Source of the DNA: Alentia gelatinosa
Taxonomy: Eukaryota > Annelida > Polychaeta > Phyllodocida > Polynoidae
NCBI GenBank assembly: GCA_950022655.1
Contig: OX465581.1
Location: 29,917,300 to 29,981,299 of the forward strand
Direction of reading: 5' to 3'
DNA: 64,000 nucleotides
Shown here: positions 10,521 to 37,200 of the stretch, one piece after another
Layout of the letters: every line of letters starts with the position of its first letter
How positions within the stretch are numbered: the stretch's first letter is position 1
Translations under genes and position numbers: made by a program
Notes under the pieces: model-generated
Databases searched by the model: none
The model's input: only the letters and a program-made list of their open reading frames with translations
What the model was told of the DNA's origin: nothing

Positions 10521-10704
10521 TCAATATTTCGCCAGTTTGGCCGCGAGGGCTTGAGAGACCGAAGCAGGGCGGAGGTAGGCCCCGAGGCCTGTCTTCGATT
10601 TCCAGGTACCATGCACCATAATATCCTCGAGTGCGATACCGGGGGTGGAGGCTGCATCCTGGGCGGCTCCCCGTCTCAGACTATGGATAGAAAACCGCTC
10701 GGGG
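10521..10704 (-). pseudogene. DIRS tyrosine recombinase, C-terminal catalytic part
   Basis: The minus-strand frame entering at the LINE target site encodes PERFSIHSLRRGAAQDAA, then HGTWKSKT and GAYLRPA, ending at a TGA (10523-10521). These are the tyrosine-recombinase box II elements: HSLRRG with the second catalytic Arg, HGxW, and the nucleophile Tyr in AYLRP. It continues the coding sequence broken at 19131 by insertion of the LINE, with the 'ERF' codons falling in the duplicated target site. Confidence 0.88.
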
Positions 10705-10938
10705 AAAACATCAAATTTGCCAAGCTGACAACAAAAGTCTGCCTGATGAGGATGGTGACACCCATTTCTTAGGTTATGCAGGCTTAGTACGGACTCAGGT
10801 GTAATCCCCCCCAACTCCTGGGTTTTTTCGGACATCCATCTGCATAAAGTTACTTAATGATAGAGGAAGACTCCGTGGTGCGGGAAATCCAGTTTAGTCC
10901 GTCTACGAGAAGGGATCGCAAAGGAATCAGCGATCGGG
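10705..10938 (+). other. LINE 5' untranslated region
   Basis: 234 bp between the target duplication and the ORF1 ATG. It presumably carries the internal promoter, but no recognisable promoter motif was seen. A minus-strand frame across it and the flanking DIRS sequence is accidental. Confidence 0.7.
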
Positions 10939-12627
10939 ATGAACGGTAGGCAGACAAGGAGCGCTGTCATCAAAAATGGCGATAGGAGGTGGACGGCTCG
11001 AGACGAAGAGGATTTTCCGAGTCTTTCGGAAGTTGTTACTTCGCAAGATCTACATCAGGTTAGGAAAAAGAATTCCAAAAATGGGAAGAATAGTAGTGGA
11101 AGAGTCCCCTCGGAATCACTGGGTGGGGATCCCTTCCAAGCTGAAATATCAGAACTTAACAGGAGATTTGAACGGTTGGAAAAGGAGAACGTCAGGTTGG
11201 CGGATAGAGTTGTTACCCTAGAAACGAAGTGTTCGGATTTAGAGGAGCTATTAAATGTCACGGCAAATGACACAGAAATGTTAAAAGAGTATACGGGCAG
11301 GGTTGATATTGATAGTGACGACCTTAAAATCTCTGTAGAAAAGTCCAGGAACACGTACGACAAGAGACTGAAAGAACTAGAAGGGAGACTCAAAGAGTTG
11401 GAAATTAAAAAGGAGCCTGTAAGGCCCAACGATAATTTCAATCTCATGATGGTTAAAAAACTCAATTCCAAGTCGATCATCATAACGGGAGTTGCGGAAA
11501 GTAGATATGAGGATGTCAGGGATACGGCAGCGGATATTATAGGGGCCACAGGCCTACGCCTACACCCTACCGAAATAGACTTGGCATACAGGGTAGGTCA
11601 GTTCACTGGTATGGGTAGGCCTAGGCCTATAAAGGTTACGCTACTACATGAATCGGTCAAGGTTGAGATTCTCCGCAATAAAGGTAAACTACTGAGACAG
11701 TCCAGAACTAAGAACGTTTGGCTATCGGAAGACGTACCAGAGCAAATATCCCATCAGAGGGCAACTTTGAGGGCAGTGGCGGACAACGCAGCCAGAATAG
11801 GATTGGAATCCCGCGTGGTACGCGGGGGGGACGGGGTTGTAATAGCTGGAAAAGTCTACGGTGCCTCAGAGCTGAATGGGCTCCCAGAGAAGGCTTCCCT
11901 CAGGAATACCTTTACTTTGGTCAAAGACAATGAGGTTTTTTTCCAGGGCCCCCATGCCCCTTTCTCCAATTTTTTCGGTTGCAATTTTAGGCTTGATGGT
12001 ATCTCTTACACCTCAGCGGAACAGGCCTATGCTGCGGCCAAGGCAAGAATGTGTGGGGATGGAGCGAGGGCGGAGAGAGTCCTATCCTGCCGAGATCCTT
12101 TTGAAATCAAAAGGATTTCGAAGGAGGTGAAGATTACGAAGGCTTGGGAAGTACAAGAAGATCAGACTATTGACAGAATAGTGAGCGCGAAGTTTCATCA
12201 GAACAGGGATCTGGCAGAATTGCTAATACAGACGGGAAGCCGAAGGCTGACAGAGGCGACCAGAGATCAGAAGTGGGGAGGAGGCCTAACTTTGGCGGCG
12301 GCCAGAGCAGGCACCAAGGGAACAGGTCAAAACAAACTGGGTCATCTCCTCATGGATGTGAGAAGGGAACTCAAAAGATCCACGTTGCGGAATTCTCAAG
12401 GAATAGGCCCAGCGGAGGGGCCTAACCACGAGGGCCAACAAGGCCAGGAGGCCCCGGACGGGGGATTGAGGATTCCCCAGCCTAGCGCTGCGCCCCATAC
12501 AGAGTCTGGCGCGACACTGCAGGAAAAGTACTCAGTTTCTAGTGACGTCACCATTCCGGTGAGGACCGCAGTCACAGAAAATCAACATTCAGGTTTGGGA
12601 CCTGACGAAACATCGGAGGTAGGCTAG
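10939..12627 (+). CDS. LINE ORF1 protein: coiled coil, RRM-like and NADAR domains
   Basis: 562 codons from ATG to TAG, intact. Residues about 65-165 are charged, with heptad-like leucines (RFERLEKENVRLADRVVTLE, later KRLKELEGRLKELEIKK), predicting a coiled coil for trimerisation as in L1 ORF1p. Residues about 175-290 (KSIIITGVAESRYEDV ... AYRVGQ ... PRPIKVTLL ... WLSEDVP) match the ORF1p RRM-like domain and the following C-terminal part. Residues about 330-480 form a NADAR (YbiA-like) domain with the expected landmarks: FFQGPHAPFSNF, SAEQAYAAAKA, SAKFHQN, LIQTGSRRLTEAT, D-x-K-WGGG and GQNKLGHLLMDVRREL. NADAR proteins process ADP-ribose-linked compounds and include hydrolases that remove ADP-ribose from guanine bases. 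The conserved Glu, Lys, Asp/Trp-Gly and Asn/Gly positions all appear present, so an active fold is plausible. The tail (about 485-562) is low complexity. Its role in retrotransposition is unknown. Confidence 0.9.
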   Translation: MNGRQTRSAVIKNGDRRWTARDEEDFPSLSEVVTSQDLHQVRKKNSKNGKNSSGRVPSESLGGDPFQAEISELNRRFERLEKENVRLADRVVTLETKCSDLEELLNVTANDTEMLKEYTGRVDIDSDDLKISVEKSRNTYDKRLKELEGRLKELEIKKEPVRPNDNFNLMMVKKLNSKSIIITGVAESRYEDVRDTAADIIGATGLRLHPTEIDLAYRVGQFTGMGRPRPIKVTLLHESVKVEILRNKGKLLRQSRTKNVWLSEDVPEQISHQRATLRAVADNAARIGLESRVVRGGDGVVIAGKVYGASELNGLPEKASLRNTFTLVKDNEVFFQGPHAPFSNFFGCNFRLDGISYTSAEQAYAAAKARMCGDGARAERVLSCRDPFEIKRISKEVKITKAWEVQEDQTIDRIVSAKFHQNRDLAELLIQTGSRRLTEATRDQKWGGGLTLAAARAGTKGTGQNKLGHLLMDVRRELKRSTLRNSQGIGPAEGPNHEGQQGQEAPDGGLRIPQPSAAPHTESGATLQEKYSVSSDVTIPVRTAVTENQHSGLGPDETSEVG

Positions 12628-12658
12628 ACTGTGGTCTGTTAACGTACAGTCTGTATAT

Positions 12659-13303
12659 ATGACAATGCCGAATCTAATGGTAGTAACTGATTCTAGGGGG
12701 AGGCTACTGCAGCAAAAAATCACTGATGATCGAGTAAAGATACGATTTTTCCCGGGCGCCACTTTTAGGCGGGCAGCCAACAGAGCGCTTAGGCTGGCTA
12801 GGAGCTCGCCGGACGAAGTTTATCTGATAATTGCAGGAGTGAATAACCTAACCATTAGGGCAAAGAACAAGAAAGATTTGTCTTTGTCTAAACAGTCTGT
12901 TGATGGTTTGGTGAAATTAGTAGTAGACCAAGTGAAGGAAGCAGACATCGACTGGAAAGCCATTATCCCGGACACTAAGGTAATTTACGCGCCGGTGGTG
13001 GGCTTTGATTTTGCACCATGCTCGACCCGTTCCAGAGAGGACGTCGCAGTGAAGAACCTGCAACAGATCTTGGAAGAGGCAGTGGAGAACATCAACAGAG
13101 AGATAGTGGCTCTCAACAGGGCCAACTCCGTTCCCACCCCGTGGCTACAACGAATGATCCATAGAAGGAGAGGCGGGAAAGTCAAGTCTTATTATGATGC
13201 TCTTCATCCCGATGGAATCCACTTAGGACCTCAACTCATCAAAGACTGGGTGGAAAAGCTCTCCAAGTTATGTGACAACTTGGGAGGTTTAGACAGTCAT
13301 TAA
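12659..13303 (+). CDS. LINE-encoded SGNH/GDSL-hydrolase-like protein
   Basis: 214 codons, 31 bp after ORF1 and in a different frame. Start: ATG at 12659, with a second in-frame ATG two codons later. The N-terminus reads LMVVTDSRGRLL (block I, Ser 12 as nucleophile in place of GDS), followed by FFPGATFRRAANRALRLA, then VYLIIAGVNNLT (block III, with Asn), and near the end YYDALHPDGIHLGPQLIKDW (block V D-x-x-H dyad). This order fits the SGNH hydrolase fold. Esterase domains of this superfamily are known in ORF1 proteins of CR1-type LINEs; here it is a separate ORF in an L1/Tx1-like element. Substrate unknown. How it is translated (reinitiation after ORF1 or a separate transcript) cannot be told. 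Confidence 0.75.
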   Translation: MTMPNLMVVTDSRGRLLQQKITDDRVKIRFFPGATFRRAANRALRLARSSPDEVYLIIAGVNNLTIRAKNKKDLSLSKQSVDGLVKLVVDQVKEADIDWKAIIPDTKVIYAPVVGFDFAPCSTRSREDVAVKNLQQILEEAVENINREIVALNRANSVPTPWLQRMIHRRRGGKVKSYYDALHPDGIHLGPQLIKDWVEKLSKLCDNLGGLDSH

Positions 13304-14549
13304 CTGATACCGGTATCACTGAAACCATACTGACAAAAGGGCCTAATGGTGGGGGGGGGGGGGGGGGAAATCACACATAATATGGGGGGGGAGGTGGGGG
13401 GGGGGGCAAATAGAAATATTGGGGCAGTCGATTGATAGCTCTGGTTGGGTGGGGTCAGACATGTTTGGACGGGACCTGGATGTTTGGACTGGTCGTTTGA
13501 TAGGTCAGAACATAAGGGTTACCTAGCCAGGAGAGAGATTCTTGAGGGGGCCGGAATTGGTATGGGTGGGAGGCCTAGGTCTTGGTCCAGTCGATTGATA
13601 GGGCCAGGAAGGGGCCGGAGCTGGGATGAGAGAGGGGCCTATGCCCTGGTCCAGTCGATTGATAGGGCCAGGAGGGGGCCAGACTTGGTATGGTAGAGGT
13701 CCATGTCTTGGTCCAGTCGATTGATTGGGCTGGGACAGGACTGGGGGAAATTCCATATGGATGTGTAGAGGGAGGGTCGTGGTTGCTAAGGACCAGGACC
13801 AATTTGTAGGAATTTATAGAAGATGTATACATGTTCAGATCCAAGTTTGTAGGTTAGAAGTGTCAAGTCAAAATTTTGTAAACCTACACGACTTTCCAGT
13901 TGATTAAAGTTGTGATCATGTTAGTATTTAGTATTAAGTTAGTATTAAGCTACTGTCGTTTATACTGTTAGATATTAAGCTGAAAGAGATCAACCAAGGA
14001 AGGGGGGGTGGAGGGTCAAAAAGGGATCGGCCCGATTCACGGTCGTGTGATAGTGATCGGTGCAGTGGGTTCCCTCCCTCTCAAATCAGATTTTGTAGAG
14101 GGGGGGGTATTTATTTTTTTTATTTTTTTTTTTTTTTTTTATTTTTTATTTTTTTTTTAACTTTGTCTGGAGGGTTGCTCTGGGAGTTGGGGGGGATCCT
14201 TTTCCCAGTGGTAACTTGCAGAAGAGTAAAACCATAAACTGTACTTTCCTTGCGTGCAGGGAAAGTTATTAAGCTTTACATGTTCAAAATGAAATGTTCT
14301 GTGTTATATGTGAGTGACTCAACCACTCGGTCAATGTTCAATGTATTTTGTGTAGAATTTTTCTCTTGGTTTAGAGTGCTTATTTTTACTAGGGGGAGAG
14401 GAGAGGCAGAGAGAAGGGCTCAAGGTTACAAGTTGCGAGACAGGCAGTTCGTAACAGGGATGAGGGGGAGCAAAGGGACAGATTTTAACGGGAGGGGGTT
14501 GGAGGGAGAACAGGGTAACTTTACTTTTGAAGTTCCTCCAATATAAAAG
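13304..14549 (+). repeat. LINE inter-ORF region with a tandem repeat array
   Basis: 1.25 kb without a convincing gene. It holds G runs (13351-13368, 13385-13406), then an imperfect array at about 13425-13740 with units of about 60-66 bp containing 'ggtccagtcgattgataggg' followed by 'ccagga(a/g)ggggcc'. After that come 'agtattaagttagtattaagc' repeats (13921-13980), and a T-rich tract at 14108-14160. A similar 'cggtcgtttgataggccc' motif reappears in the 3' UTR near 18693. The short open frames across the array are repeat-driven. Confidence 0.75.
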
Positions 14550-17500
14550 ATGACAGGAAATCATACCAAAAAGGGGAGTAAGGGCAGGGACCTGAGGTTT
14601 GGGTGCCTGAATGTTAATGGTTTAGGCGACAAGGTAAAGAGGAAGGCTATCTTCTCTCAGCTCAGGAAGGTATCAGACATCTGCATTTTACAGGAAACTC
14701 ACAGTGTAGCGAATACAAATAAGCTGTGGGAAATGGAATGGGGGGGCAGGATGGTGTTCTCTAATGGCACCTCCCAATCGAGGGGGGTGGCCATAGCTTT
14801 GCCTAGGGATGAGGAAGTAATTTTGAGGGACTCATTCTCAGACGAGGAGGGTAGATTGGTGGGGGTTCTTCTCGAGATTGAGGGAGAGGAGATGGTTCTC
14901 GCCAATATTTACGCCCCCACCACGAACAAGGACAGCCAGCAACAGAATCTGTTAGGAGTCTTGAAGGAATTTCTATCAGGATTTCTAGATATCCCCATCA
15001 TATTGGGGGGCGATTTTAATGTGGCACTTTTGCCACAGCTAGACCTCAAGAGTTCCAGTCGCACAATTCCGAGTAACTATAGGACGAGTCTATTGTCTTT
15101 TCTTGATTCTCTGGAGTTAACAGACGTATGGAGGGAAGCACACCCAGAACAAAGGAAGTACACTTTCCATAGGGGACCTCAATGCTCCCGGTTGGATTAT
15201 TGGTTTATCTCGGACGATTTCAAGAATAGAGTAAAGTATCCCGAAATAGTGACGGCTTTCCACACGGACCATGCTCTCCTTTTATTCCATATCGAAAGGT
15301 CTTCCCAAAACAGAGGACCGGGTTACTGGAAGTTTGACAATTTATTGCTAGGAGACAGAGAGTTCACGGCTCAACTGGCTCTTCTCATACAAGAGTGGGG
15401 AGACCTTCATGAATCCATGAAGCCAGACATTAAATGGGATTTTATAAAGTATAAGATCAGGGACTTTACTGTGGGATATGTAGGAGAAAAGAGGAGGAAG
15501 GAAAAGGAGGAGCGGATGGGAAACATTAGAAGGTTAGCAGAACTAGAAGAGGATTTTGACATATTAGATGAAAATGGCCTTAGTGAATATTATAGTTTAA
15601 AAGGGGATGTAGAAAGACAAGAAAGGAAAAAGGCGTTATGTCTGATGTTTAAATCCAGGGCCAATTGGGCCCAAAATGGGGAAAAACCATCCAAATACTT
15701 TTTGAATATCATGAAACAAAAATATAACAACAAATTAATCTCACAGATCAGACTGCAGGATGGCAATCTCACAACTAATATGGAAAGTATTTCGGGTAGA
15801 ATTCTCTCGTTTTACAAGAAATTATACGGAGAGGGGGGAGGGGGGCCCAATCTATTGGATAACATTGACGAACTGGTTACAGAAGGAGACATACCCAGGA
15901 TTAGTGACTCGGACAGGGAAAGGCTCGATCTCCCCCTCACCCAGGGAGAGCTGAGAGAGGCACTCAAAAAGCTTAATAACAATAAGTGCCCAGGGACGGA
16001 CGGGTTGACGTCAGAGTTTTATAGGTACTTTTGGGGGGAGGTGGGAAATATGGTTTTTCAGTCCTTAGCCTATGCAAAAGAGGCACACAGCCTAAGTACA
16101 GAACAGAGGAGGGGGGTAATCAACCTCATCCCAAAAAAGAAGGTCAATAGAGAGGACATCAGAAACTGGAGACCCATTACAATGCTCAATACCGATTATA
16201 AGATCCTAACCAAATCTCTCGCTCTGAGAATGCAACTGGTGTTGGACTCTGTGATCTACCAGGACCAGACGGGTTTCATGAAGGGGAGGTATATTGGTTC
16301 AAACATTTCCCTGTTAAGGGACTCTATTTCATATCTAAACCAGAACAGGTTGTCAGGTTTCCTGCTGAGTCTGGATTTCGAAAAAGCTTTCGACTCGGTT
16401 AGATGGGATGCTTTAGATTATGCTATGAAATTGTTTGGCTTTGGCCCAGACTTATGTGATTGGGTCCGTATTATTTACACGGAGCCCGAGGTGTGTGTCT
16501 CCAACAATGGCTTTCATACCCAATGGTTTCAGCCAGAGAGGGGCACCCGCCAGGGTTGCTGCCTATCCCCATACCTGTTTATTATCACAGTAGAAATTTT
16601 AGCTATAGCGCTCAGGGAACACCCAAGAATTAGAGGGATTGTCTTGGGGGGGAAAAAGATCAAATTATCGTTATTCGCAGATGATTTATGCTGTGTAGTT
16701 AGGGATGTGGCTTCGATTCAAAGGGTTTTAGATATAATCCGAATTTTTGGTAACCTTGCGGGACTGCGCATCTGCAGGGGGGGAAGGGCACTGGTCCTTT
16801 GCCGCTTCAAACGGTAACTAATATGGAGATTTTAGGGATAATGTTCTGGAATGGGACGTCAGCTGAAGAGGATTACAATCTTAATTTTAAAACCAGATTA
16901 GAGAGATGTCAGGCCATTATGAGACTTTGGTCTTCTCGAAATATTTCCCTTAAAGGGAGGGTGGTAGTGGTTAATAGTTTATTGATACCTCAACTCCTTT
17001 ACTGGGTCTCAGTTTTATACACGCCAGAAAGAGTGTTTGTGGAATTCAGGAGAATGGTTTCACACTTTCTCTGGCAGAGTAAGAATAGCAAAGTTTCGTT
17101 CAATGTAATTAGACAACCAGTGGAGGGGGGAGGGTTGAAGTTGCTGGATTTAAAAAGCATGTGGGAGGTATCACGTTTAAAGTGGATAGCCCGGCTCTGT
17201 AGAGAGGATTATTTCCCATGGACCATGTTTTTTCGGTATTTTTTAGACATCAAGGGATCTGTTTGGGACTTCTTCTTGGAAAAGATCCCGCTCACAGCCT
17301 TGCCTGGGATCCCTCCATTTTATAAGCAAATTATCACTCTATGGAAGGGATTGTACAATATACGACCGATTAGCGAAAGGGAAAAACAAAATGACCCGAT
17401 TCTGAACAACATGTTCATCAAGCTGGACTGGGAGGTGGAGGTCTTAATAATCAGAAGTTGGAAAAAGGCGGGCATTGTGCAGGTTCAGGACTTGGTTAAA

Positions 17501-18295
17501 GGGAAAAAATTCATGAGTGCGGAAGAAATTGAAAGGGAGTATGGGGTTATGTGCAGCAAGGTAATCCGGGATAAGTTGTTGGAGAGCATACCCTGGTCTC
17601 CCACTATGTCCTTGGAGAATTTTAGGACAGACTCCATGTGTCTCTTGCTACCAGATCATGAAGGGGGGGCTTTCAATATAATGTCAGGCAACAACAAAAA
17701 ATTGTATGCATTTGTGCTGGGAAGGAACAGGGTCTCGTCACCAGGTATGAAGTCCTGGAGGGAGGCTCGTCCCCATCTCTCCGACAGAGAATGGAGGGAA
17801 ATTTATGGGAACGCTTGCAGAGTGACGAGGGAAACCAAACTTCAATCTTTCTTCTTTAAGTTAATTCACGTTGTGATTCCAACGAACCAGTTCCTTTTTA
17901 AGAAACGAATTCGGGCCTCCGACAGATGTTCCTATTGTAATGATGTGGACAGCATTTTTCACTTTCTGGTAGAATGCCCTAAGGTTCTGACCTTTCGGAG
18001 CCAAATCAGGAACTGGCTGAAAACATGTGTCAGGTGGGATCTCCCCAGGGACCCGTTTGAAATGATTATTGGTACTGGTGGTAGGGGAAGGGAGCGGGTG
18101 ATATCCCACTTCATTTGTCTGCACATAAACTTCTACATTTATAGGCAAAGATTATTTTACAATAACCTTCTCTCTTTATACGAATGGTCGAGGGAACTAC
18201 GAAACAGTTTATGTATAGAAAAATACATTTGTGGGCTCCTGGCAAAGAAAAACAAATTCTCTAAATGGGAAACTTTCTTGACAGCGATGATGTAA
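14550..18295 (+). pseudogene. LINE ORF2: APE endonuclease, reverse transcriptase, CCHC knuckle; one frameshift
   Basis: The first frame (14550-16817) encodes the endonuclease: NVNGLGDK, ILQETHS, NIYAPT, LGGDFNV, RLDYWFIS and FHTDHALL supply the Asn, Glu, Asp/Asn and Asp/His catalytic positions. The RT follows: GTDGLTSEFYR, LIPKKK, NWRPITMLN, SLDFEKAFDSVRW, RGTRQGCCLSPYLF, and FADD (in LSLFADDLCC) as the catalytic pair. The second frame (16799-18295) has the thumb (MEILGIMFWNG, WSSRNISLKGRV, LLYWVSVLY) and a C-terminal zinc knuckle CSYCNDVDSIFHFLVEC (C-x2-C-x7-H-x4-C). The frames overlap at 16799-16817, and the switch is best explained by loss of one base in the G7 run at 16777-16783. Otherwise no stop is seen in about 1,248 codons, so the damage may be recent or even a sequencing error. 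Confidence 0.92.
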
Positions 18296-19089
18296 AGACG
18301 GGAAAACAAGGATTCGATTGTTGGGAAAGGACCCGGTCAAAACCAACACCACCTGCAGGTTGCCAGAATTAAAACTAAAAGGGTAGGCCAGGGAGTCGAG
18401 GCACCTTAAGGGATAGAACTATGACTTTGTAGAATACATTATCTATTATATACAATCAATATCGGGAACGTAGACCAAGATAATTGGATATAAGCGGCTG
18501 TCTGCTGGCTCGCTCTCTGTTACGCCTTTGTTGTGATCCCTTCAGTAGGTTATTAGTGTCTTTGATTTTGTATATCTACTACTATTTTTGTCCCTGGATC
18601 GGTTATGCTGGTAAATACAAATTGTGTCAAGATCTTCCCACCTACGGGTATTGTCTGTATTACACCATTCTGCACCATTCTGCTCTCTTGGCCCGGTCGT
18701 TTGATAGGCCCATAATTTGGCTAGAATGGCCGGAATGGCTAGAGACCAGGTTAATGTGATGTTCTGCCCGGTGAGGCCTCCTCCTAACTTGTAATATGTT
18801 ACAGGAACTTTATAACATCGATTTTAAGAGAAAGGGTCTCTCAACAGTAAGAGGAGGAGGACCCTCTTTTTGATTAAAATTTTTCCCTATGCGATAAGGG
18901 TCTTATCCGACCCACAAAAAATACCAGCAGTTTTCAACAAGGACTAGCATATGAGTTTAAACATTTGATTAAATACTTACAGTTTTGTCAGCATGTTTTA
19001 TAGACCCCAAATTGGGTTACCCTGAGGGTTCGACGAATGTTATATGATGTATTTTGTATCACTGATGCTTATGGAAATAAAGACTGCTT

Positions 19090-19120
<31 letters not shown>
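18296..19120 (+). terminator. LINE 3' UTR with AATAAA and poly(A) tail
   Basis: About 800 bp of untranslated sequence ending with AATAAA at 19076-19081, then 'gactgctttta' and 27 A residues (19094-19120) against the target duplication. The 'ggtcgtttgatagg' segment near 18694 echoes the inter-ORF repeat unit. Confidence 0.9.
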
Positions 19121-19130
19121 CCGCTCGGGG

Positions 19131-19873
19131 GCCGGAATACCGACCTTCCCCAGACCGAGGCGGATAAAAGCCGTCAGCTGGCGCGAGGCCAGCGGCGCTC
19201 CTGACGGAGTCAGGAAGGCTGGAATCCAAGGAGGAGCCAGGCTCGTCTCCTTGTAGTGACTCCAGGCCTGCACAGGCAATGCTGAGTGAAAGTGGGAGCC
19301 ACCAGAAGTGAGGCAGGTTGAGCCGCCTCTCTGATGGTTTTAGAGGAGTTGATAATTATCCTGAGCCCCCCCCCCCCCACCCTCCTGCTGGATGTCTCTG
19401 CGAAAGGAGGGTGTGGGGGCCCGCCCCGAGGGCGGAAGGAGAGATGAGGTTAGAACCGCGAAGCATGGTCGCGTAACCTAGCAGTATGGCTGACTTGAAG
19501 ACTCGAGCCGGACGGCCCGCCAAGTCCGCGAGGGCCGCAACGAGGTCGGCTGAGAGGGGGGGGCCTGCGACGGGACGTGGGCCGTCATGCGTGCCGCCCC
19601 TTGGAGAACTTGCTTGACGAGGTGGTTGGAGAGGGTATCTGGAGATCCCCCGTGGGCCGCTATCCAGGCCCGAGCACCAGATATATAGTTCTGGCACGAG
19701 GTCGGGGCCCGGAGGGAGTTGACCAGATACTGAGCGTATAGGCCAGCTTCCCGGACTGACGGCGCGAGGGGGTCCAGGCGGTACCACGCTGCAAAGTTGA
19801 GGTAGGTCCTGGCCTGGTGATCCTTGTTGGCCTGAGTTGATGCCGATGTCGCTGCTTGAAGCGAGGCCCACAT
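19131..19873 (-). pseudogene. DIRS tyrosine recombinase, N-terminal and central part
   Basis: The minus strand encodes an N-terminal SAM-like domain from about 19873 (TYLNFAAWYRLDPLAPS, YISGARAWIAAHGG, VLQGAARMTAHVP), then a second frame (LVAALADLAGRPARVFKSAI, LLGYATMLRGSNLISPSALG; the LRxSN segment is the first catalytic Arg box), then a third frame (LASRQLTAFIRLGLGKVGIP) that stops at the LINE poly(A). Frame changes fall at the G8 run 19556-19563 and near the C run 19367-19379, with a stop near 19340. The gene continues at 10704-10521. It overlaps or closely follows the RNase H end. Confidence 0.8.
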
Positions 19874-19907
19874 CTGGGCCTGAAGACCGGTCGTACCTGG
19901 AACGAGA

Positions 19908-20224
19908 TTACCACATCAGTGACAGGAATGGAGACGGCAGTGTGGGAGGAACGAGCTGGGCTCCGAGTTCTTCTGCTAGAGAGGTAGCCCAAGTGGCCGC
20001 TGGTGCTGAGACGAGGGCGCGGACCGCGGCTGCTGGGAGGTCGAGGGCCTGGCCCAAGGTCTGACGGAGGGCGAGGTCGACATCCTTTCCCGCCAGGAGG
20101 AGCCAGACTTGCCTCGCAACCGCCGCAACGACTGGATCCTTAGTTCTACCCGTGGTGAGGGCCTCAAGACCCGGGAGGAGGTCCAGCTCGACCACTATCC
20201 GGGCACCTTGGGGGACTCGAGGTC
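19908..20224 (-). pseudogene. DIRS RNase H, C-terminal part (after the Gypsy insertion)
   Basis: The frame entering from the Gypsy insertion site reads FGPRVPQGARIVVELDLLPG, then GRTKDPVVAAVARQVWLLLA and GKDVDLALRQTLGQALDLPA. This fits the region of DIRS RNase H normally written 'DN..vv..l..G.s.d......R......A....l...H.pG..N..AD'. The Asp/His residues of that consensus are degraded here. The frame runs to a stop at 19908 close to the recombinase start. Confidence 0.65.
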
Positions 20225-20229
20225 CAAAG

Positions 20230-21713
20230 TGTCACGTACGGCCCTGCCAATGTCGCGTACGACGATGCCAATGTCGCGTACGACGATGCCAATGTCGCGT
20301 ACGACGATGCCAATGTCGCGTACGACGGTGCCAATGTCGCGTACGACGGTGCCAATGTAGCGTATGACGGTGCTAATGTCGTATGACGATGCCAAATGTC
20401 GTATGACGATGCCAAATGTCGCGTACGACGATGCCAATGTCGCGTACGGCCATAAATAGCCAATATCACAGAAAAACTCGGGAAAACTAATCTTTAGAGA
20501 ATCGCTGAAGTTAGCCATAAAAGGTATGTTACATTAAGATTGAGCGGCACCCTTGCAGGAGAATTTCTTTTCTTTCTGGGAAATACCCAGTGAAACTGGT
20601 CACTTTAACCAGTCCTTTATTTTCTTATTCTTTTATTATTTTTCCTGGGCATGTGGCCAAAAGTATTAATATATATACATATATATTTCCTCTTATTTAT
20701 TCTCTGCCTATATATGTTTCCCCTTTATAGATACGACTTAAACATGGTCAGACAGGGAAAATATATATTATATGGAAAGAGAGAGGCGAAAGTCGCCGGT
20801 GGGAAAGTTCCTGTCTCCGCGTGGCTGTGTCTATGTGCACATCCATGTTGTGTCCGCCTCTAGTCTCAACAAGTCGTTACTCATGACGAGCTCATGACAA
20901 CTTGTTTGTGAGAACTCTTGCTCGCATGTCCGGCTTTCTCACGCTCCCAAGAGGAACATGTGTGCATACTTCTATATGTTAAAGGAAAACCGTAATCCTT
21001 CTTATGTGAGAAATAAGATTTCAGTGGTGGTAAATAATTAGGGATGAATACCTGTGGTGCATGAGAAGGGAGAAATACTAAAGTTATTATTTTCCCTCAA
21101 AAATATTATCTTCCCTAACAATTATTATCTATTCCAAGCTAATATATTTTCCAAGCTACTATATATCCTTATGTGTATACTATGCATGTGGAGGTTTTAC
21201 CTCAAGATGTTGCACGTGGCAGGACATGTCAGGATCCTCCCGGAGGGACGCGCAAACATCTTTGCGGTTCTCTTCATATTATGGGATGGAGGCCCCCTGA
21301 CGGAAATGACGTCTCCATATTTGGGGGAGCGTCTTGTCTCTGCATGTGTGACGGAAACGACGTCTCTATATTACGGAGAGTGTCTTGTCTTTACACGTGA
21401 CTATTTGTAACCAATAGAATAAAATGTAACCATATTTGTAACCAACTACCACGCCTGGTATAATCTGTAAAAGGAATGGTATGTGAATGTGTGACGTACT
21501 CACCCGTAGTGACGTCTAAATGTATTCCAATATATAATAAAGCGACTGCCGGCATACGGCAGATCCATCCTCTCCTCAGCTTCAGCCACACGTTGTCACT
21601 AGAGTTGTTTTGCTACGGAGCCTCACCCCACTGTGTGACCATAGCGGTTTCAGTGGGGGAAGCAACTCAGCACGCAGGAGGTGTGGACGAGCTTACAGCG
21701 GCCCCATCTAACA
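20230..21713 (+). repeat. 5' LTR (1,484 bp)
   Basis: Starts TGTCACGTACGG and ends ATCTAACA. The first 220 bp is a tandem array of 21-bp units (tgtcgcgtacgacgatgcca plus one base), with some units degenerate ('gtcgtatgacgatgccaaa'). The array contains many CGTACG palindromes and could bind a host or element factor. Downstream are an AATAAA at 21536-21541 (candidate poly(A) signal) and a pair of 'ggaaatgacgtctccatattt / ggaaacgacgtctctatatt' repeats (21302-21372). It is 21 bp longer than the 3' LTR. Confidence 0.95.
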
Positions 21714-21715
21714 AA

Positions 21716-21732
21716 TGGTGACCCCGACGTGA
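21716..21732 (+). promoter_or_regulatory. Primer binding site for tRNA-Trp
   Basis: tggtgaccccgacgtga lies 2 bp after the 5' LTR. It is complementary to the 3' end expected of animal tRNA-Trp(CCA), ...TCACGTCGGGGTCA plus CCA, over 17 bases. This is the minus-strand DNA primer site. Confidence 0.85.
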
Positions 21733-21924
21733 TGACATATAGTATGAAGTGACGAACGTGATGGGCCATGAGGAGGCAGCCACCATGGGGATCTCTGGTA
21801 TATACCCACTTTACCGTGCATCCGACACTGACTGTTATATCCTCATAGTCTGGTTCAGCTCAGGAGAGCCGAACTGACAGCTGGTGCTTTATCTGAAGTG
21901 GTGTGTAGAGACAGACACGGGACG

Positions 21925-22058
21925 ATGGAACAAGACAACTCATCACGGTTCTGCCCACGGGAGAGTGTCTACAGTGATAGAGGGAACACCTGTCTACCTA
22001 GGCTGTGGAGACCTCGGAACCTCGGGAGGCTGGCTGCGACCACCCTGTGTCTGGTTTG
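21925..22058 (+). CDS. Possible spliced env leader exon (also a short upstream ORF)
   Basis: An ATG at 21925 in strong context (A at -3, G at +4) opens a frame that reaches a consensus donor, g|gtgagt, at 22058/22059. In unspliced RNA it closes at a TGA at 22061-22063 before the gag ATG. Its last codons are hydrophobic and leave a two-base remainder. The acceptor ttgtttcag at 27031-27039 has a one-base start that restores the env frame, with more hydrophobic residues directly after the junction. Splicing would therefore give Env an ATG and an N-terminal signal peptide that the unspliced env frame lacks. This is inference from phase and hydrophobicity; no transcript was seen. Confidence 0.6.
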
Positions 22059-22183
22059 GTGAGTAGGAGTACATCTGTTTTGCATGGTAGTAATGGGTTC
22101 GGGCATTGTATTTAGAATGTGGCATGAAAATTTAATTCAGTACCTTTAAAACCCTCTTTTTGAACGGGAGACCCTATACCTAG

Positions 22184-23713
22184 ATGGTTGATACACCAAG
22201 GCATAAATATGATACCAGACAAAATACCCCCCTACCACGTTCCGCCCCCTCTAGGGTCTCCTCTACCCCTTCCATCTCCGATTCCTCAACCACCACCTCC
22301 CCATGTAGTAAGGTTTTACGGAATGTAGGTTTGCAGACAGATACTATACAACGAGGTAACCGACGATTGGGAATGACAGATAAAGAGGAAACCTCTGCTT
22401 CTCGGTCCGAAGCTAGGGGGAAAAGTAAGGAAAGTACCACAGAGTCCGTTAAAGCCAAGCCTAGTAGTATCTTTGATTTTTCTGACGCTGCAGAGAGTAG
22501 TGCCGACGCTGCAGAGCGTGGTGCAGAGAAAGCAAAAATGAGTAAAAGGGGATCTGGCGGAGATAGAGAGGAGGTGAGAACGAGGTATACGTATCTCACT
22601 GAGGGAGATGAGGATACGGATGATGAGGCAACTGAGATAGATGAGGATGAAGGTATGAATAGAAGAACACTGGATGATGAGAATATGACTAAGTTATTGG
22701 CGGCCGTGGCTGATAACCATTCATTGGGTCGTTATTCTCGCGATGTAGGTAGGTGTGAGGGAACAAACCCAGCCAAAACCCTAGCTTGGCTGAGGGAGTT
22801 AGACAAGTTGCCGGAAAATATACGTCTAAAGGTAGCAACTCTTACAGCTTCTGATCCTTTGGGGGCTAGCCTGAGACGTCTAGTAACCAACCCTGAGAAC
22901 ACCTGGCCTATAATAAAGAACACCCTGGCCCATGCGTATGTATCAGCAGATTTCCAACAAGCCCAGAGAGATAAGTTAAGAAATTTAGCTCAGAGATCAG
23001 GGGAATCTATCCGTGCATATGTCTCTGCCTTTGAGACTCTCTTTAATGAGGGATACGCAAGCCTGCCACAAGATCAATCCGACCTAATAAGGGATCTCCT
23101 TAGCGGGATGGAGGACAGGACAGCAGCATGTAGGATTGCGTCACGCAGACCTATCTCCCTCCGGGTAGCCATAAAGCAGATTATCTCATATAGCCAAAGA
23201 GAAGACTATCTTAAACCTAGAGATAGTGGGAAAGTAAATTCACTCGAACAAGAAGTTAGTGAAACCGCCCTCTTGCGGGGTGTAGTAGAAGAACTGAGGC
23301 AGGAGGTGGCTTCTGCCAATAGGTCCCACCAGGAAATGAGAGATAAAATGAAACAAGTTTTAGCAGTGCAAGGCACTCAGAAGAAATCCGAACCCAATAC
23401 AAATCCGAGAAAAAAGAAACCACGTACAGCCACCCCACAGGATAAATGTTTCCGGTGTAATAGGTTGGGTCATTTTGCAAATGATTGTAAGGATGGGCCC
23501 GGGCCTACAGATTCTTCTAGTGGGGCTAGATCGCAAGAAGTGGCAGAAGATGCCTGCAAGAGGTGTCGCCAGAGCGGCCATGTAGTAGAAGGGTGTCGGG
23601 CTCGACCCCCGACTCGTCCTTGCTATTGTGGAGAACAACACTGGAGGTATGATTGCAAAAATAAGGGTAGTTTTCCTACGCCTGTGGCTCCTCCAGCCAA
23701 CCAGGGAAACTAG
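22184..23713 (+). CDS. gag: Gag polyprotein of the Gypsy-type element
   Basis: 509 codons, intact, ATG at 22184. The N-terminal 150 residues are polar and acidic (EGDEDTDDEATEIDEDEG). The middle (about 165-340) is a capsid-like helical region with KTLAWLRELDKLPENIRLKV, WPIIKNTLAHAYVSADF and ESIRAYVSAFETLFNEGYAS, recalling retrotransposon gag. The C-terminus has zinc knuckles: CFRCNRLGHFANDC (C-x2-C-x4-H-x4-C), CKRCRQSGHVVEGC (same spacing), and a partial CYCGEQHWRYDC. Structural protein that packages element RNA. Its last two sense codons form part of a -1 slippery site. Confidence 0.92.
   Translation: MVDTPRHKYDTRQNTPLPRSAPSRVSSTPSISDSSTTTSPCSKVLRNVGLQTDTIQRGNRRLGMTDKEETSASRSEARGKSKESTTESVKAKPSSIFDFSDAAESSADAAERGAEKAKMSKRGSGGDREEVRTRYTYLTEGDEDTDDEATEIDEDEGMNRRTLDDENMTKLLAAVADNHSLGRYSRDVGRCEGTNPAKTLAWLRELDKLPENIRLKVATLTASDPLGASLRRLVTNPENTWPIIKNTLAHAYVSADFQQAQRDKLRNLAQRSGESIRAYVSAFETLFNEGYASLPQDQSDLIRDLLSGMEDRTAACRIASRRPISLRVAIKQIISYSQREDYLKPRDSGKVNSLEQEVSETALLRGVVEELRQEVASANRSHQEMRDKMKQVLAVQGTQKKSEPNTNPRKKKPRTATPQDKCFRCNRLGHFANDCKDGPGPTDSSSGARSQEVAEDACKRCRQSGHVVEGCRARPPTRPCYCGEQHWRYDCKNKGSFPTPVAPPANQGN
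23704..23710 (+). promoter_or_regulatory. -1 ribosomal frameshift site GGGAAAC
   Basis: G GGA AAC sits in the gag frame as X XXY YYZ and is followed at once by the gag stop TAG (23711-23713). The -1 frame is open from about 23671 through protease and pol to 27021, and pol has no convincing ATG of its own near the protease. GC-rich sequence with complementary parts (ggccagggg, ggcgctgttgcggcgcgac) follows by about 25-60 bases and could form the stimulatory structure. Confidence 0.8.
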
Positions 23714-26700
23714 CTAAGCCCTCAGCCCTCACCCCTTGGCCAGGGGATGGGCGCTGTTGCGGCGCGACAGGAGCCGTACGTCCTAGGGTACGACTCGATG
23801 TAGAAGGAATACAGGTAACAGCCCTGATAGACACTGGTAGTACACATACTCTTATAACCGCTCAACTGTATACTCGCTTGCCAAAGTTTATTCCTTTAGA
23901 AGAACCGCCCATGGTGCGGAGTATAACCGGACACACCCTGACTGTAAGGGGTACCTGTACTGTCAATATAGGGGGATTCCCTACAGAGGTTTTAGTGTGC
24001 GATAATGCAGGGGGAGTCGATTTGTTAATCGGGTCCAATCTATGCCGCCGGGCATGTGTAATCGATTTTGTACAAAATATAATGAAGTTAGGAGAGAAAG
24101 TATATCCGCTTGTAACTAATCCATCACAGTATTGTGGTCCTGTAATGTCTGTATCCCAAGTCCCAATGTCGAGTAGTTCCCTCGTTAATGACGTCTTAAC
24201 GAGGTATCGGGATGTGTTTAGTGAAAAGGAGACGCTGGTCCGAGTTGCTCGATCACTGCCGCCAGCAGTGATTGACACAGGTGACAGCGGCCCTATTCAT
24301 CAGAACCCCTATAGAATGCCATTGGACAAAAGAGGAAAGGTAGAACAATGCGTACAAGAAATGCTAGCTGATGGGGTGATAAGGCCGAGCACGTCCCCCT
24401 GGGCGTCTCCCATTACCCTGGTCCCGAAAAAGGACGGTGGTACTCGGTTTTGTGTAGATTACCGTAAAATCAATGCAATGACAAAAGGTGATGCTTATCC
24501 GCTGCCTTATATTCAAGATATCTTTGACACACTAGAGGGGGCCAAGGTTTTCTCCACCCTAGACCTTAAGTCCGGGTACTGGCAGATGCCTATGGACCCC
24601 GCCTCTATCGAAAAGACGGCCTTTACCTGTCATCTCGGACTTTTTGAGTTCACCAGAATGGCCTTTGGTTTAAAGAATGCCCCGGCTCAGTTCCAACGAG
24701 CCATGACCAAAGTGTTGACAGGGCTCATCGGGCGCTGCTGCATGGTGTTCATAGATGATATTGTTATCTATAGCAAGAACGAGAAAGAGCATGTAGAACA
24801 TCTGGGGAAGGTCCTTGACAGATTGAGAGAGGCAGGTCTGCAGGTAAAACCATCAAAGTGTAGCTTCTACAAGACCCAAATAGAATTGCTAGGGTATGTG
24901 GTCGATGCTGAGGGCATCCGCCCCCATGAGTCGAAAACTGAGGCCATAAGGGATATGGAACCGCCAAAAGATAGATCGGCAGTACGAAGTTTCCTTGGTA
25001 TGGCAGGATACTATCGTCAGTGCATTCCAGGATTCGCGACCCTGGCGGTGCCACTGACGGAGTTGACGAAACCAAAGAACGAGTTTATCTGGGGTGAAGA
25101 ACATCAAAAATCCTTCGACCAGCTGAAGGCTGCTTTGACCAAAGCACCTGTCTTAGCGCACCCCGATGTTAATAAGCCCTACATCTTATACACTGATGCA
25201 TCTGATCGATGCATTGGTGCTATCCTTGTCCAAAAAGATGATAAAGGGGTAGAACGGGTCATACATTATGTCTCGCACAAACTGTCTGATCGTCAACGAT
25301 TATGGCCTATCATAGAAAAAGAAGCCTATGCTATTGTGTATGCCCTTAAAAAGTTACACCCGTACCTGGGAGGGGGTGCCTCCTTTGAAATCCATACGGA
25401 CCACAAGCCCTTAAGGTGTCTTTTCCAATCAGAAATCAGGAATACCAAGCTCCAAAGGTGGTCGATCCAGATATCCGAGTATGCCGCCCCGATTTTGTAT
25501 CACAAGGGAAAGTTAAATGTCCGAGCAGATATGCTGTCTAGGATAGCAAGTGTAGCCCCAGTTAGTGACCAAGGCGGGGAGGAGACCTGGGCGTCAGAAA
25601 CCCCAGACGTCTGGAACACTGACAGCATTGATCCTCTGGCTTTGAAGAAGCTCCAGAAAGAACAGTTCAAAGATGGGTTCATTGAGGCTGAGCAGGGGAC
25701 AGACGAAACCCGTTATGTGGTATATCAGGGAATCCTGTATAGCATAGCAGAACCATTCAAAAACGGAGGTACCTATCCTCGGTTGATGTTACCCCAGCAG
25801 TATAGGAAGAAAGTAGTAGACCGTTGTCATGGGGAAGTGGGGCATTCGGCTCCAGAAAAGACCCTAAAGAGGGTACAGGAAAATTACCTTTGGCCCGGAA
25901 TGCGGAGAACCATTAGGGAGTACATAGGTAGCTGTGTGTTTTGTAACACCCTCACACTGGCAAATGCTGCTGCCCCAAGGGGACAGATGCCTACGCCCCC
26001 GTGTTCGTTCCACACCTGGGGAATGGACCTGGTGGGACCTTTCCCTAGAGATCAAAGAGGTCGACAGTACCTGTTAACGTGTATAGATCATCTTACTGGC
26101 TGGGTAGAAGCAATACCAATAGCATCAAAGAAATCTGCTACTGTGTGGGAAGCCTTCTCACGTGAGATAGTGGCTAGATATGGGCTCCCCACAGCCGTAG
26201 TGACTGATAATGGAGGGGAATTCACAGAGTCCCATTTTGAGGAATGGCTGAGGAATAATGGTGTCCAACACTGTAAGACCTCGCCGTATCATCCACAGTC
26301 CAATGGGATGGTGGAGCGATTCAATGGAACCATCCAGAAGTTGCTATTGAAACTAACAGGGGGAGACCCGCGAAAATGGACAAGGTACCTGTCCGAGGCG
26401 CTATATGCGTATAGAATTACGGCTGGTCCCGCCGGCATCAGTCCGTACCAATCAGTGTATGGCAGGAAAGCGCGCCTGCCCCAAACCACTACAGGAAACC
26501 CTGACGAAGGTGAAAGGTTACAGGCAATACGGCTAGCCCAGAGCCTATTGCGTGAATTCCGCCTGGAAACGAGAGCCGCCTATAAGACAAAAGAGCCGGG
26601 TCGGGCTAAACGCTTACCCGTTGGGGCCTTTGTCACGGTGCGCGCCCTCTTTCCCCGGAAGGGGCAGCCTAAGTGGCAGCCCGGCTACTGGGTGATCTCC

Positions 26701-27021
26701 AATCATGACGGAGGTCTCCGCGTAGAGGAACTCGAAACGGGACGCGTCGTTAGAGTTAACCAAAGGAATGCTCGGGTCATTCCTGAAGCAAAGTCGTATG
26801 AGGAGGTAGATCCAGTGCCTGCCCCAACGAGTAAGGAATCAAGGCTTCCGCCCGCCGAAGCTACCCCGATTCCCTTAATCCCAAACCCCCATCTGTCCAC
26901 AGTCCTTACGCCAGCAGCAGCTGCTGTTAACACTTCCTCAAGTAAGAGCAGGGGGTGTCCTAATTCTTTTGAAATTAATTGGAATTCCTGGCTGGAAACA
27001 GTGAGACTCTGTACTAACTGA
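23711..27021 (+). CDS. pol: Pro-Pol polyprotein: protease, reverse transcriptase, RNase H, integrase
   Basis: The -1 frame relative to gag, about 1,100 codons, no stop. The protease active site is ALIDTGSTHTL (near 23821-23850), with the flap and second hydrophobic-Gly region DLLIGSNL. RT: FCVDYRKINAMT, STLDLKSGYWQMPM, FEFTRMAFGLKNAPAQFQRA and FIDDIVIYS (catalytic FxDD). RNase H: YILYTDASDRCIGAIL, EKEAYAIVYALKKLHPYLGG and IHTDHKPL. Integrase: an HHCC zinc finger (RCHGEVGHSAPEKTL ... GSCVFCNTL), then the catalytic core WGMDLVGPFP, TDNGGEFTESHFEEW, and HPQSNGMVERFNGTIQ (D, D, E present). A C-terminal GPY/F-like region (PKWQPGYWVIS) and a Pro-rich tail follow. Order RT-RH-IN is that of Gypsy/Metaviridae. 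All catalytic residues are present. Confidence 0.95.
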
Positions 27022-27039
27022 GTCCTCATCTTGTTTCAG

Positions 27040-28858
27040 GTGCCTGGCGCTATCCAGCGGACAGGAGATAAGCAAGATAGAAACTGGGGCCATTATATCT
27101 CACGAAGAGGAGGTGAGAGAGATACGCTCTTATGCTCAAGTTTACGTATACCTAACGGCCGACCATTCACTGGATGTGAAATGGCTGCAGATGTGTGACA
27201 GTCTAGAGAATCGCATACGAGAGAAACAAATGCGATATAATTTTAACCACCCTAACACAGATGCATTGGCTTTCACCGAAAATTTGTTGAGAAGACTTGC
27301 TGTCATTCGGACGCGGATAAGGCATGTCAGTCGACGAAAAAGGGGACTTTTGAATATAGTTGGCAAAATTTCTTCATTTTTATTTGGAACAGCCACTGAA
27401 GCCGATATTGAAGCCCTGCAGGCGGCAGATTTGGCATTGGCGGAAGAAATTGAGGGTGTGGTAGACACACAAATAGGACTAGTCGCCAAAGTAAACCTAT
27501 TGGGGGTGCAGGAAGAGAAGTTGACCCATACTGTAAACTCAATAATACAGAGGCAAAACGCGCAAGAAGGAAACATAATACGCCTGAGTCATATGGAACC
27601 TATTGTTGAGTATAACGGGGTAGTACTGGGATTCACGATGGTGATGGATTTAATAGATGAACATCTAACTAGTTACGAAGCAGCGGTGGCTGAGGCCTCT
27701 AGCGTACGGGTCGCCTGTGAAGCACGAGTTGTTTCTGATCAAGTAGTGCCTGTGCCATTAATGGAGAAAATACTCTCTTCAAAAGATAACGGCCTACAAG
27801 TTAATACCCTAGCTTACTATGCCTATGTCCGGGTGGAGAAGATAATAGTTATCGACTCCCAGGCCATTTGTGTCCTGCAAGCACCTTTATTCGGGTCCCA
27901 CGAGCAGCGTTTATACACTATAAACACCATGGCAGTATGTGAAGGGAAGAAATGTAAAAAAATCCACCAGCCACAACCGTTTGTTCTAGATTTGACAACT
28001 GAGGATCTGTATTTCCCGTATGAATGTTATGGTCCAGACCCGCGAGCGTGTAAATCAGGGGTGAAGTATGATAGACGGCAGCAACCGTGTTTGTATGGGT
28101 TAATAAATGGAGACGCGGAACAACAGGCCAAGTGTCCGGTGACACTTTACACTGGGCGACCGCCACCATCTAGGATAGTCTCAACTCCCCTAAATAGATT
28201 CATTGTAGAAACAGAAGACACAACTTACCACTATGCATGTCCTCATAAAAGCCCAGTCACTGGAAAATTAACTGCCGGAAGTTATGTTATCCAAGTAGAC
28301 CAGCGATGTGGACTTGACACCGATTTCTGGAATCTTAGAGGCTTGCCCCTTACTCGGTTTTTCCACAACATAACCATCCCACCTCCACAGCCCGTAGATT
28401 TGTCTTGGTTAAATTTTTCCCGGTACCCAATGAGAACGCATAAAGTTTGGCAAACTAGCGGCATATCTGAGTTAAATTTTCCCTCCTTCAATGCCCTTGA
28501 AGTCCCTCCTCGCAGTAGGATTGTATCAAGAATAAAAACTATACAGGCTAGCGTATCAAGTAGAGCCTGGTGGTTTTGGTTTATAGTAGCCCTAGCAATA
28601 GTAGTGGGATTTGTAGTATTTTTGTATCTTACAAAAACAGGTTATAAGATTCGAGAAATGATTGGGAAGCAAGGGTTTTCACTATGCTGTAAGAATAAGA
28701 AATGTTATGGTATAGAGAGGAGTAAGAGGAAAAAGGTTCTTCCTAATGTGGGGTACAGTGCTCGAACCTGTGAGGCTATGATTCAGGTGGACGTGCCAGA
28801 CGAGGGAGATGAGGATGACGTAATTAGTCGTTCCCGCAGTCCTAGCCCACCGAGATAA
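27040..28858 (+). CDS. env: Envelope protein (F-type class I fusion protein) of the Gypsy-type element
   Basis: Open frame of about 606 codons after a splice acceptor (AG at 27038-27039). There is no suitable ATG or complete signal peptide at its own 5' end; both would come from the leader exon at 21925. A basic furin-type site, RRKRG (about 27333-27347), is followed by a glycine/phenylalanine-rich stretch ending FLFGTATEAD and then heptad-like helices (to about 27560). This is the arrangement of baculovirus F and errantivirus Env proteins. A long cysteine-bearing ectodomain follows, then one membrane span, WWFWFIVALAIVVGFVVFLY (about 28570-28630), and a cytoplasmic tail of about 75 residues ending in an acidic and Ser/Arg-rich stretch. 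Intact; the element could in principle be infectious-type or cell-to-cell mobile. Confidence 0.88.
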
Positions 28859-29384
28859 AAAAAAAAGGAAAAAAAAAAAAAAGGGGAATGAGGGCATGAT
28901 CAAAGAGCTCAAAAATTAACACCTGTTTCTGCGATCCTTCCTGACTGTTGTCCTGATGTCCTGTGCAAAGACCAAAATGACTGTTTCTCACACCCTTGGT
29001 GTTCTACTTTGAGGTGCTGAACCATGCTGCACCTGGTGGATGAGGTGCTGAACCACGCTGCACCTGACAGAGACGAGCTCGGACGGGGTGTGTGAGAACG
29101 AGGGCGTCTGACGGAACCATGCTCGGACGGAGTGTGTGATAACGAGGGCGTCTGACGGAACCATGCTCGGACGGAGTGTGTGATAACGAGGGCGTCTGAC
29201 GGAACCATGCTCGGACGGAGTGTGTGATAACGAGGGTGTCTGACGGAACCATGCTCGGACGGGGTGTGTGAAAAACACGGACAACACGATAAAGACATTC
29301 TTCTCTGCAGTCCACACAATAAGAACAAAACTCTGATACAACTGGTGGTACAACTTGTGGTACAACTGTCACAGGGTTGACAGG
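28859..29384 (+). repeat. Post-env region with a 44-bp tandem array
   Basis: After the env stop come an A-rich tract (28856-28882), a duplicated 'gaggtgctgaaccaygctgcacctg' segment (29010-29070), and about 4.5 copies of a 44-bp unit (gctcggacggagtgtgtgat plus aacgagggcgtctgacggaaccat) at about 29076-29275. The long open frames seen here on the minus strand are produced by the repeat (44 is not a multiple of 3, so all frames stay open) and are not called as genes. Confidence 0.85.
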
Positions 29385-29534
29385 ATGAGAGTGGTACTGT
29401 TTCTTTTCTTTGTCTTTGCTTTCACTTATGTTCTTTTTGTTTTATTTTTAATCGGCTATTCTGCGTCTTTTAATTGGTTTTCCTCCCAGGTCACATCGAC
29501 CACGCCCATCTTGTATGACGATTACCTCCTGTGA
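29385..29534 (+). CDS. Possible small membrane protein (49 aa) in the accessory region
   Basis: ATG at 29385 to TGA at 29532-29534. The N-terminal half is strongly hydrophobic (VVLFLFFVFAFTYVLFVLFL), long enough for one membrane span, followed by a short polar tail with Ser/Thr and Asp-Asp-Tyr. It lies between env and the 32-bp repeat array. It could be a small accessory membrane protein or a chance frame in T-rich DNA. No homology is claimed. Confidence 0.35.
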   Translation: MRVVLFLFFVFAFTYVLFVLFLIGYSASFNWFSSQVTSTTPILYDDYLL

Positions 29535-29654
29535 CCATTCCCCTCTTTTACGCCGGAAAGTGGTTACAACCGGTGTTACTGCTAGTGTTGCAAGTGACCT
29601 TGAAAGTAGTTGCTTTGAGCTCATTTGGTGCGTGAAAATCAGTAATTGAAACAA

Positions 29655-30235
29655 TTCCAATTTCTTGAGGGATAGCCTTACCCTCCTTCCAATTTCTTGA
29701 GGGATAGCCTTACCCTCCTTCCAATTTCTTGAGGGATAGCCTTACCCTCCTTCCAATTTCTTGAGGGATAGCCTTACCCTCCTTCCAATTTCTTGAGGGA
29801 TAGCCTTACCCTCCTTCCAATTTCTTGAGGGATAGCCTTACCCTCCTTCCAATTTCTTGAGGGATAGCCTTACCCTCCTTCCAATTTCTTGAGGGATAGC
29901 CTTACCCTCCTTCCAATTTCTTGAGGGATAGCCTTTTCTGGCTTAAACTTGCCCTCATCTTCTAGATCAGAGGCACTCGATCTAATGTTTAACGGTTCCG
30001 ACGAAGAAGGTGATGGGGTGGAGAATGTTTTGTCTGATAGTAACGCAGAGAACCCTCCCTCCAATTTCTTGAGGGATAGCCTTACCCTCCTTCCAATTTC
30101 TTGAGGGATAGCCTTACCCTCCTTCCAATTTCTTGAGGGATAGCCTTACCCTCCTTCCAATTTCTTGAGGGATAGCCTTACCCTCCTTCCAATTTCTTGA
30201 GGGATAGCCTTACCCTCCTTCCAATTTCTCGAGTG
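29655..30235 (+). repeat. 32-bp tandem array with a hairpin core
   Basis: About nine near-identical units of 32 bp (ttccaatttcttgagggata plus gccttaccctcc) at 29655-29935, a 120-bp unique spacer (29936-30057), then about five more to 30228. Each unit contains gaggg...ccctc, able to form a 5-bp stem. The final unit blends into the next array ('caatttctcgagtgataac'). Confidence 0.95.
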
Positions 30236-32539: not shown

Positions 32540-32599
32540 ATAGTCGTTTTCAAGAAACAGATAGAGCCGTATGAACTAAGCATATTACCCTGATTAAAG

Positions 32600-33310: not shown

Positions 33311-33319
33311 AAATTTTCC

Positions 33320-33834: not shown

Positions 33835-33850
33835 AAGGTGGGGAGGCAGA
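33835..33850 (+). promoter_or_regulatory. Polypurine tract
   Basis: aaggtggggaggcaga, one pyrimidine in 16 bases, directly abuts the 3' LTR. It is the expected primer for plus-strand DNA synthesis. Confidence 0.85.
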
Positions 33851-35313: not shown

Positions 35314-35318
35314 CAAAG

Positions 35319-37054: not shown

Positions 37055-37200
37055 GCTGAGGCTTGAGTCGAGCCCTGAGGCTTGAGTGGAGTGTCGATGG
37101 GCGTTGCGAGCAGGCTTGCTTGGGTCGTGAGGCTCGAATTCCCGGCCTTGCGAGACTTGCCTCGAGGCTGGGTACCCCTGGTTAGTAGGCTTGGGGGAGC
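37055..37200. other. Spacer between DIRS gag and RT
   Basis: Non-coding, with repeated 'gaggcttgag' (37052-37095) and related 'gcgaggcttg/gcgagacttg' motifs. Confidence 0.6.

Follow-up and report, generated by a model that had tools for sequence, protein, structure and literature searches.

A LINE in the stretch of Alentia gelatinosa DNA that we analysed (64,000 nucleotides, hereafter the window) is an L1-group element, and its ORF1 protein (ORF1p) is an L1-type RNA chaperone with a C-terminal YbiA-type NADAR domain. A preliminary description of this sequence had proposed the fusion and had not known NADAR as a usual module of LINE ORF1 proteins. We find a true NADAR joined to an L1-type ORF1p within one open frame; however, a 2025 Ectocarpus paper had already described NADAR in the ORF1 of several Tx1 LINE families from Crassostrea gigas (PMC12477816), so the fusion is known in kind. 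Among the matches listed from the open-licence literature, that paper was the only one to link NADAR with LINEs. What we add is evidence that two divergent families have a common junction and conserved residues, together with an altered R93 and a possible SGNH ORF. The role of NADAR in eukaryotes, including animals, is described as an open question (PMC11125620). For the domain found here we infer an activity, a substrate and a benefit: it may remove ADP-ribose from nucleic acid on the LINE RNP, a tentative reading that we rank ahead of its rivals but place somewhat short of probable.

The LINE and its insertion site

The element (positions 10705-19116) has a 14-bp direct repeat on both flanks, and we assign the following features to it.

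10691-10704, no strand: target-site duplication, 5' copy, the 14-bp direct repeat AAAACCGCTCGGGG
10705-19116, plus strand: LINE insertion, about 8.4 kb from 5' UTR to poly(A)
10942-12627, plus strand: ORF1, 561 codons from the first Met, in a frame open from 10864
11131-11406, plus strand: coiled coil, ORF1 residues 90-181
11467-11739, plus strand: RRM-like domain, about ORF1 residues 202-292
11740-11889, plus strand: L1-type C-terminal domain (CTD), about ORF1 residues 293-342
11935-12375, plus strand: NADAR domain (Pfam match 11947-12375, ORF1 residues 362-504)
12659-13303, plus strand: ORF1b, 214 codons from Met, possible SGNH/GDSL hydrolase
13547-13730, plus strand: 64-bp tandem repeat, 2.9 copies, between ORF1b and ORF2
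14550-16817, plus strand: first part of ORF2, endonuclease and reverse transcriptase (Exo_endo_phos 7.8e-11, RVT_1 5.3e-32)
16754-18295, plus strand: remainder of ORF2 in another frame, zf-RVT region (zf-RVT 4.7e-6)
19094-19120: poly(A) run closing the LINE
19117-19130, no strand: target-site duplication, 3' copy, its first four A in common with the poly(A) tail

No second copy of the LINE was found elsewhere in the window. ORF2 consists of an APE-like endonuclease followed by a reverse transcriptase (RT) and, among solved structures, is closest to human L1 ORF2p (3.9e-86, 292.9 bits, compared with 55.5 bits for R2). The lesion that had been noted in ORF2 is real: the RT frame stops at 16817 and the reading continues in another frame, open from 16754, so that the frame change lies within 16754-16817. 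ORF2 of this copy is broken, whereas ORF1 is open.

Joining the flanks without the LINE leaves a minus-strand frame open across the junction, with stops farther upstream in that frame. The motifs of the joined frame suggest the C terminus of a tyrosine recombinase; neither half had a Pfam match. The recombinase gene that the LINE interrupts (10521-10690 and 19131-19915, minus strand) apparently belongs to a DIRS- or Ngaro-like element, again labelled by motif. On the same strand, RT/RNase H-like frames can be seen by eye at 35267-37279, where there were likewise no Pfam matches.

A stretch of about 1.2 kb that follows ORF1b and includes the 64-bp repeats is devoid of any open frame of 110 codons. 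A 13-base motif, searched as GTC(G/A)(A/T)TTGATAGG, occurs three times between ORF1b and ORF2 (13492-13666) and once in the LINE 3' UTR (18696-18708), with no other plus-strand copy in the window, and is perhaps a binding or recombination signal.

ORF1 is an L1-type protein with a NADAR domain

The ORF1 frame is intact, as had been described, and runs open over 587 codons (10864-12627) with its first Met at codon 27 (10942). The coiled coil appears as long helices in the AlphaFold2 model, and the RRM-like domain has the order beta-alpha-beta-beta-alpha-beta and a Foldseek match to the human L1 ORF1p trimer (3.0e-4), with low confidence over this region (pLDDT 34-51, ten-residue means for residues 201-290). 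Model and Foldseek thus back the coiled coil and RRM-like domain that had been placed ahead of NADAR. After the RRM we additionally find a CTD, absent from the preliminary description, which is modelled as helix-strand-strand-strand-helix (pLDDT about 67-77 for residues 301-350) and aligned by Foldseek with L1 ORF1p. Coiled coil, RRM and CTD together have the L1-type arrangement, and ORF1p is presumably trimeric.

All of the NADAR landmark motifs that had been named by eye are present in this frame. The domain matches Pfam PF08719 with E = 2e-29 and 103.4 bits against a cut-off of 35.1, over profile positions 8-163 of 163, and it scores 102.4 against a cut-off of 73.7 with NCBIfam TIGR02464. 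A sequence search of the PDB returned E. coli YbiA (2b3w, 3.3e-11) and Phytophthora nicotianae NADAR (8bau, 1.2e-8). The match is far beyond chance, and the domain falls within the NADAR/YbiA fold.

The TIGR02464 model is that of riboflavin biosynthesis intermediates N-glycosidase, and its score could be taken to mean that the domain is a housekeeping N-glycosidase that, like YbiA in the making of riboflavin, works on damaged metabolites (flavins or nucleotides) and is unconnected with host defence. However, the model names a family and not a tested activity, such an enzyme would bring a LINE no evident benefit, and animals are not known to make riboflavin. We regard this explanation as very improbable.

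Active-site residues of the NADAR domain

Active-site positions are numbered as in P. nicotianae NADAR, and the list of ADP-ribose contacts is taken from the account of that protein (PMC11543638). The window NADAR retains six of these eight contacts (E43, K50, W89, E125, D130 and W133) and has Lys at R79 and Glu at R93. The catalytic E43 and K50 and the acid at 125 correspond to E386, K393 and E464 of the 587-codon frame. In four related proteins, P0001-P0004, the same six contacts are found, except for a Lys at E43 in P0002; all four have Tyr at R79 and Leu or Ile at R93. At each of these two positions, 29 of the 33 other NADARs, from prokaryotes and viral contigs, have Arg or Lys. The R79 and R93 pair of pyrophosphate contacts is not kept in the window, where Lys is still basic and Glu takes the second position; these contacts are known from one co-crystal structure (PMC11543638) and are no requirement for membership of the family. 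With six contacts kept and R93 altered, the chemistry looks preserved and the pyrophosphate contact changed, which is a lead to a changed substrate and not proof of one. On residue identity, the non-basic R93 of both LINE families could reflect a different substrate.

The same changes, R93 non-basic in both families and R79 replaced, together with the position of NADAR next to the RRM and CTD, would also suit a binding module for nucleic acid, ADP-ribose or an ADP-ribosylated host protein, which would steer the RNP with no need of catalysis. This is rather unlikely, because a pure binder would not need all five of E43, K50, E125, D130 and W133, and these are kept in the window, P0001, P0003 and P0004.

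Position 125 is reported to be Glu in the YbiA subfamily, Asp in the BC4488/DarT-linked proteins and His in phage NADARs (PMC11543638). It is Glu in the window and in P0001-P0004, which is the mark of the YbiA subfamily and not of a DarT-NADAR antitoxin. With E up to 1 allowed, the Pfam matches of the element's four frames include no ADP-ribosyltransferase family.

The fusion is present in a divergent ORF1 family

A first search with ORF1 gave one match among 7998 scored candidates. A search with an alignment gave 11 proteins among 7994, four of which (P0001-P0004) contain NADAR; the other seven are pieces that end ahead of it. Restricting the search to ORF1 residues 195-505 gave none among 7996 and missed P0001 too. 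As only the candidates sharing most words were scored, the breadth of relatives found is a lower bound. In viral contigs, none of four stretches in the ORF2 scan and none of 97 in the ORF1 alignment scan held a relative, and the window NADAR alone matched none of 60 prokaryote stretches; a degenerate NADAR alignment matched 28 of the 60 prokaryote stretches and 8 of 29 viral ones.

P0001-P0004 are ENA proteins on separate contigs, about 30% identical to the window ORF1, in which NADAR follows a related CTD; an RRM is present in P0001, P0002 and P0004 and a coiled coil in P0001 and P0004. They represent 47, 27, 8 and 80 member sequences, respectively, which may be genomic copies or repeated assemblies. 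P0001 is 30% identical to the window over 268 residues, from inside the RRM through CTD and NADAR, and stops soon after NADAR, whereas the window ORF1 extends 83 residues beyond. By domain, identity between the window and P0001 is 22% for the N terminus and coiled coil, 29% for the RRM, 32% for the CTD and 32% for NADAR; between P0001 and P0004 the values are 62%, 66%, 78% and 73%. NADAR is thus conserved about as well as the RRM and CTD. In each of the three ORF1s for which it was measured (window, P0001 and P0004), the linker between the CTD and PFSNF has 23 residues.

The preliminary description had named two grounds on which it would fall, a lack of profile match and a domain missing from other family members; neither applies, since the profile match is significant and the domain recurs in divergent relatives. 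A one-off capture or an assembly artefact is rejected, as four other proteins on separate contigs contain NADAR. We conclude that the fusion is old and was retained, since NADAR sits at the same place in two ORF1 families that are about 30% identical. That it persists in so distant a family suggests a working part, and the shared 23-residue junction fits one old fusion.

Some copies are damaged, given the Lys at E43 in P0002 and the end of P0004 ahead of the last NADAR motif. These losses and the broken ORF2 of the window are what would be expected of a passenger that was picked up by chance and has yet to be lost. We hold this to be most improbable, as the two families share not only the fusion but also the open frame, the linker length and the catalytic residues, and NADAR is likewise reported in ORF1 of the C. 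gigas Tx1 LINEs (PMC12477816).

For a NADAR tree we used 38 rows, made up of 33 of 36 prokaryote and viral loci, the window and P0001-P0004, with no other eukaryotic NADAR. Two loci with partial matches (L022 and L026) and one whose match figures were those of L031 (L032) were left out. In the best tree the window and P0001-P0004 lie apart, and well-supported branches require the LINE label to change twice; a single LINE-NADAR clade is not rejected (p-AU 0.111).

ORF1b and neighbouring sequences

The Met of ORF1b lies 31 bases past the ORF1 stop. Its match to Pfam Lipase_GDSL_2 (E = 2e-4, 22.3 bits) is under the cut-off of 32.9, and by eye the blocks TDSRG, PGA, GVNN and PDGIH stand in SGNH order. 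At E up to 1, the sole match among PDB sequences was an unrelated regulator (0.86), and NCBIfam gave none; a single-sequence model (pLDDT 36.8) was too poor for a fold search. In its account of RepBase, a 2013 survey describes esterase-containing ORF1 proteins as being without RRM (PMC3905857). An RRM-type ORF1 and a possible SGNH-like ORF would here occupy separate frames.

Downstream of the LINE, a Gypsy-type element (20250-34149) has gag, pol and a Baculo_F-like envelope frame (22184-28858) and is bounded by 300-base repeats, 97% identical and 13.6 kb apart. By eye, the DIRS-like element has its RT-like part on one side of it and its recombinase part on the other. The Gypsy-type element contains dense arrays of 32-base and 41-base tandem repeats (29655-30695) and, between env and the 3' repeat, a 293-codon frame (31658-32539) in which Cys and His residues form, by eye, a RING-like pattern; this frame had no Pfam match and is a possible accessory gene.

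A possible role for NADAR on the LINE RNP

NADARs hydrolyse guanine-linked ADP-ribose (PMC11543638; PMC11125620). If the ORF1 domain does the same, ORF1p coating the element RNA would carry NADAR domains on the RNP, where they would cleave the N-glycosidic bond of ADP-ribosylated bases, mainly guanine, in element RNA, its cDNA or the target site. Lesions made by host ADP-ribosyltransferases, which would otherwise block reverse transcription, would in this way be removed. Guanine-N2 ADP-ribosylation of DNA is described in clams (PMC11209040), so such a function would be sensible in hosts of that kind, and we consider an anti-ADP-ribosylation role plausible. PARP1 and PARP2 are reported to aid and not to hinder human L1 insertion (PMC8535693), so the removal of ADP-ribose need not benefit a LINE, and L1 restriction by the PARP-family factor ZAP is reported to need no more than its zinc-finger domain (PMC4441479). 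Protein ADP-ribosylation could therefore cut either way.

The domain might instead serve RNA processing and not oppose ADP-ribosylation, for example by acting on the element RNA, or on a trans-spliced RNA, at its 5' end or cap. The nematode protein SNA-3, with three NADAR domains, is required for SL1 trans-splicing and associates with the cap-binding CBC-ARS2, and mutants in its key NADAR residues fail, although according to its authors the mutations may work through folding or protein level (PMC9303266). Processing of RNA intermediates is also what the Ectocarpus authors propose for the NADARs of transposable elements (PMC12477816). For the element described here we judge this distinctly unlikely.

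An extension of the de-ADP-ribosylation reading, which we consider doubtful, is that a lineage of L1-group LINEs, the oyster elements included, has kept a NADAR that predates their split and that counters a host defence by nucleic-acid ADP-ribosyltransferases (guanine enzymes like clam CARP-1, for example). Were this true, the LINE domain would be a retrotransposon counterpart of the NADARs carried by phages and DarT operons, and the common non-basic R93 would be a sign that the domain has adapted to a base-linked substrate on the RNP. A NADAR kept on an RNA-coating protein would implicate ADP-ribosylated nucleic acid in retrotransposition, and the LINE NADAR offers a test bed with defined residues to mutate.

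Comparison with known systems

Human L1 resembles the window element in its ORF1p fold, its endonuclease and RT, and in using a poly(A) tail and a short target-site duplication; human L1 is not known to have a NADAR or an SGNH ORF. Compared with P. nicotianae NADAR (8bau) and E. coli YbiA (2b3w), the window domain differs by its non-basic R93, the Lys at R79 and its fusion to ORF1p. The C. gigas Tx1 elements, which are recorded in Repbase and known here by description alone, are likewise LINEs with a YbiA-type NADAR in ORF1 (PMC12477816). In Ectocarpus a YbiA-type NADAR is again found in a retrotransposon, which differs in being an LTR element, of the Gypsy type, with the domain in another protein, Pol (PMC12477816). 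The window element is a further member of the NADAR-ORF1 LINEs, possibly with an SGNH-like ORF added, and the link between transposable elements and NADAR that was drawn in 2025 from oyster and brown alga is now seen in two divergent ORF1 families, perhaps including oyster ones, that share a junction.
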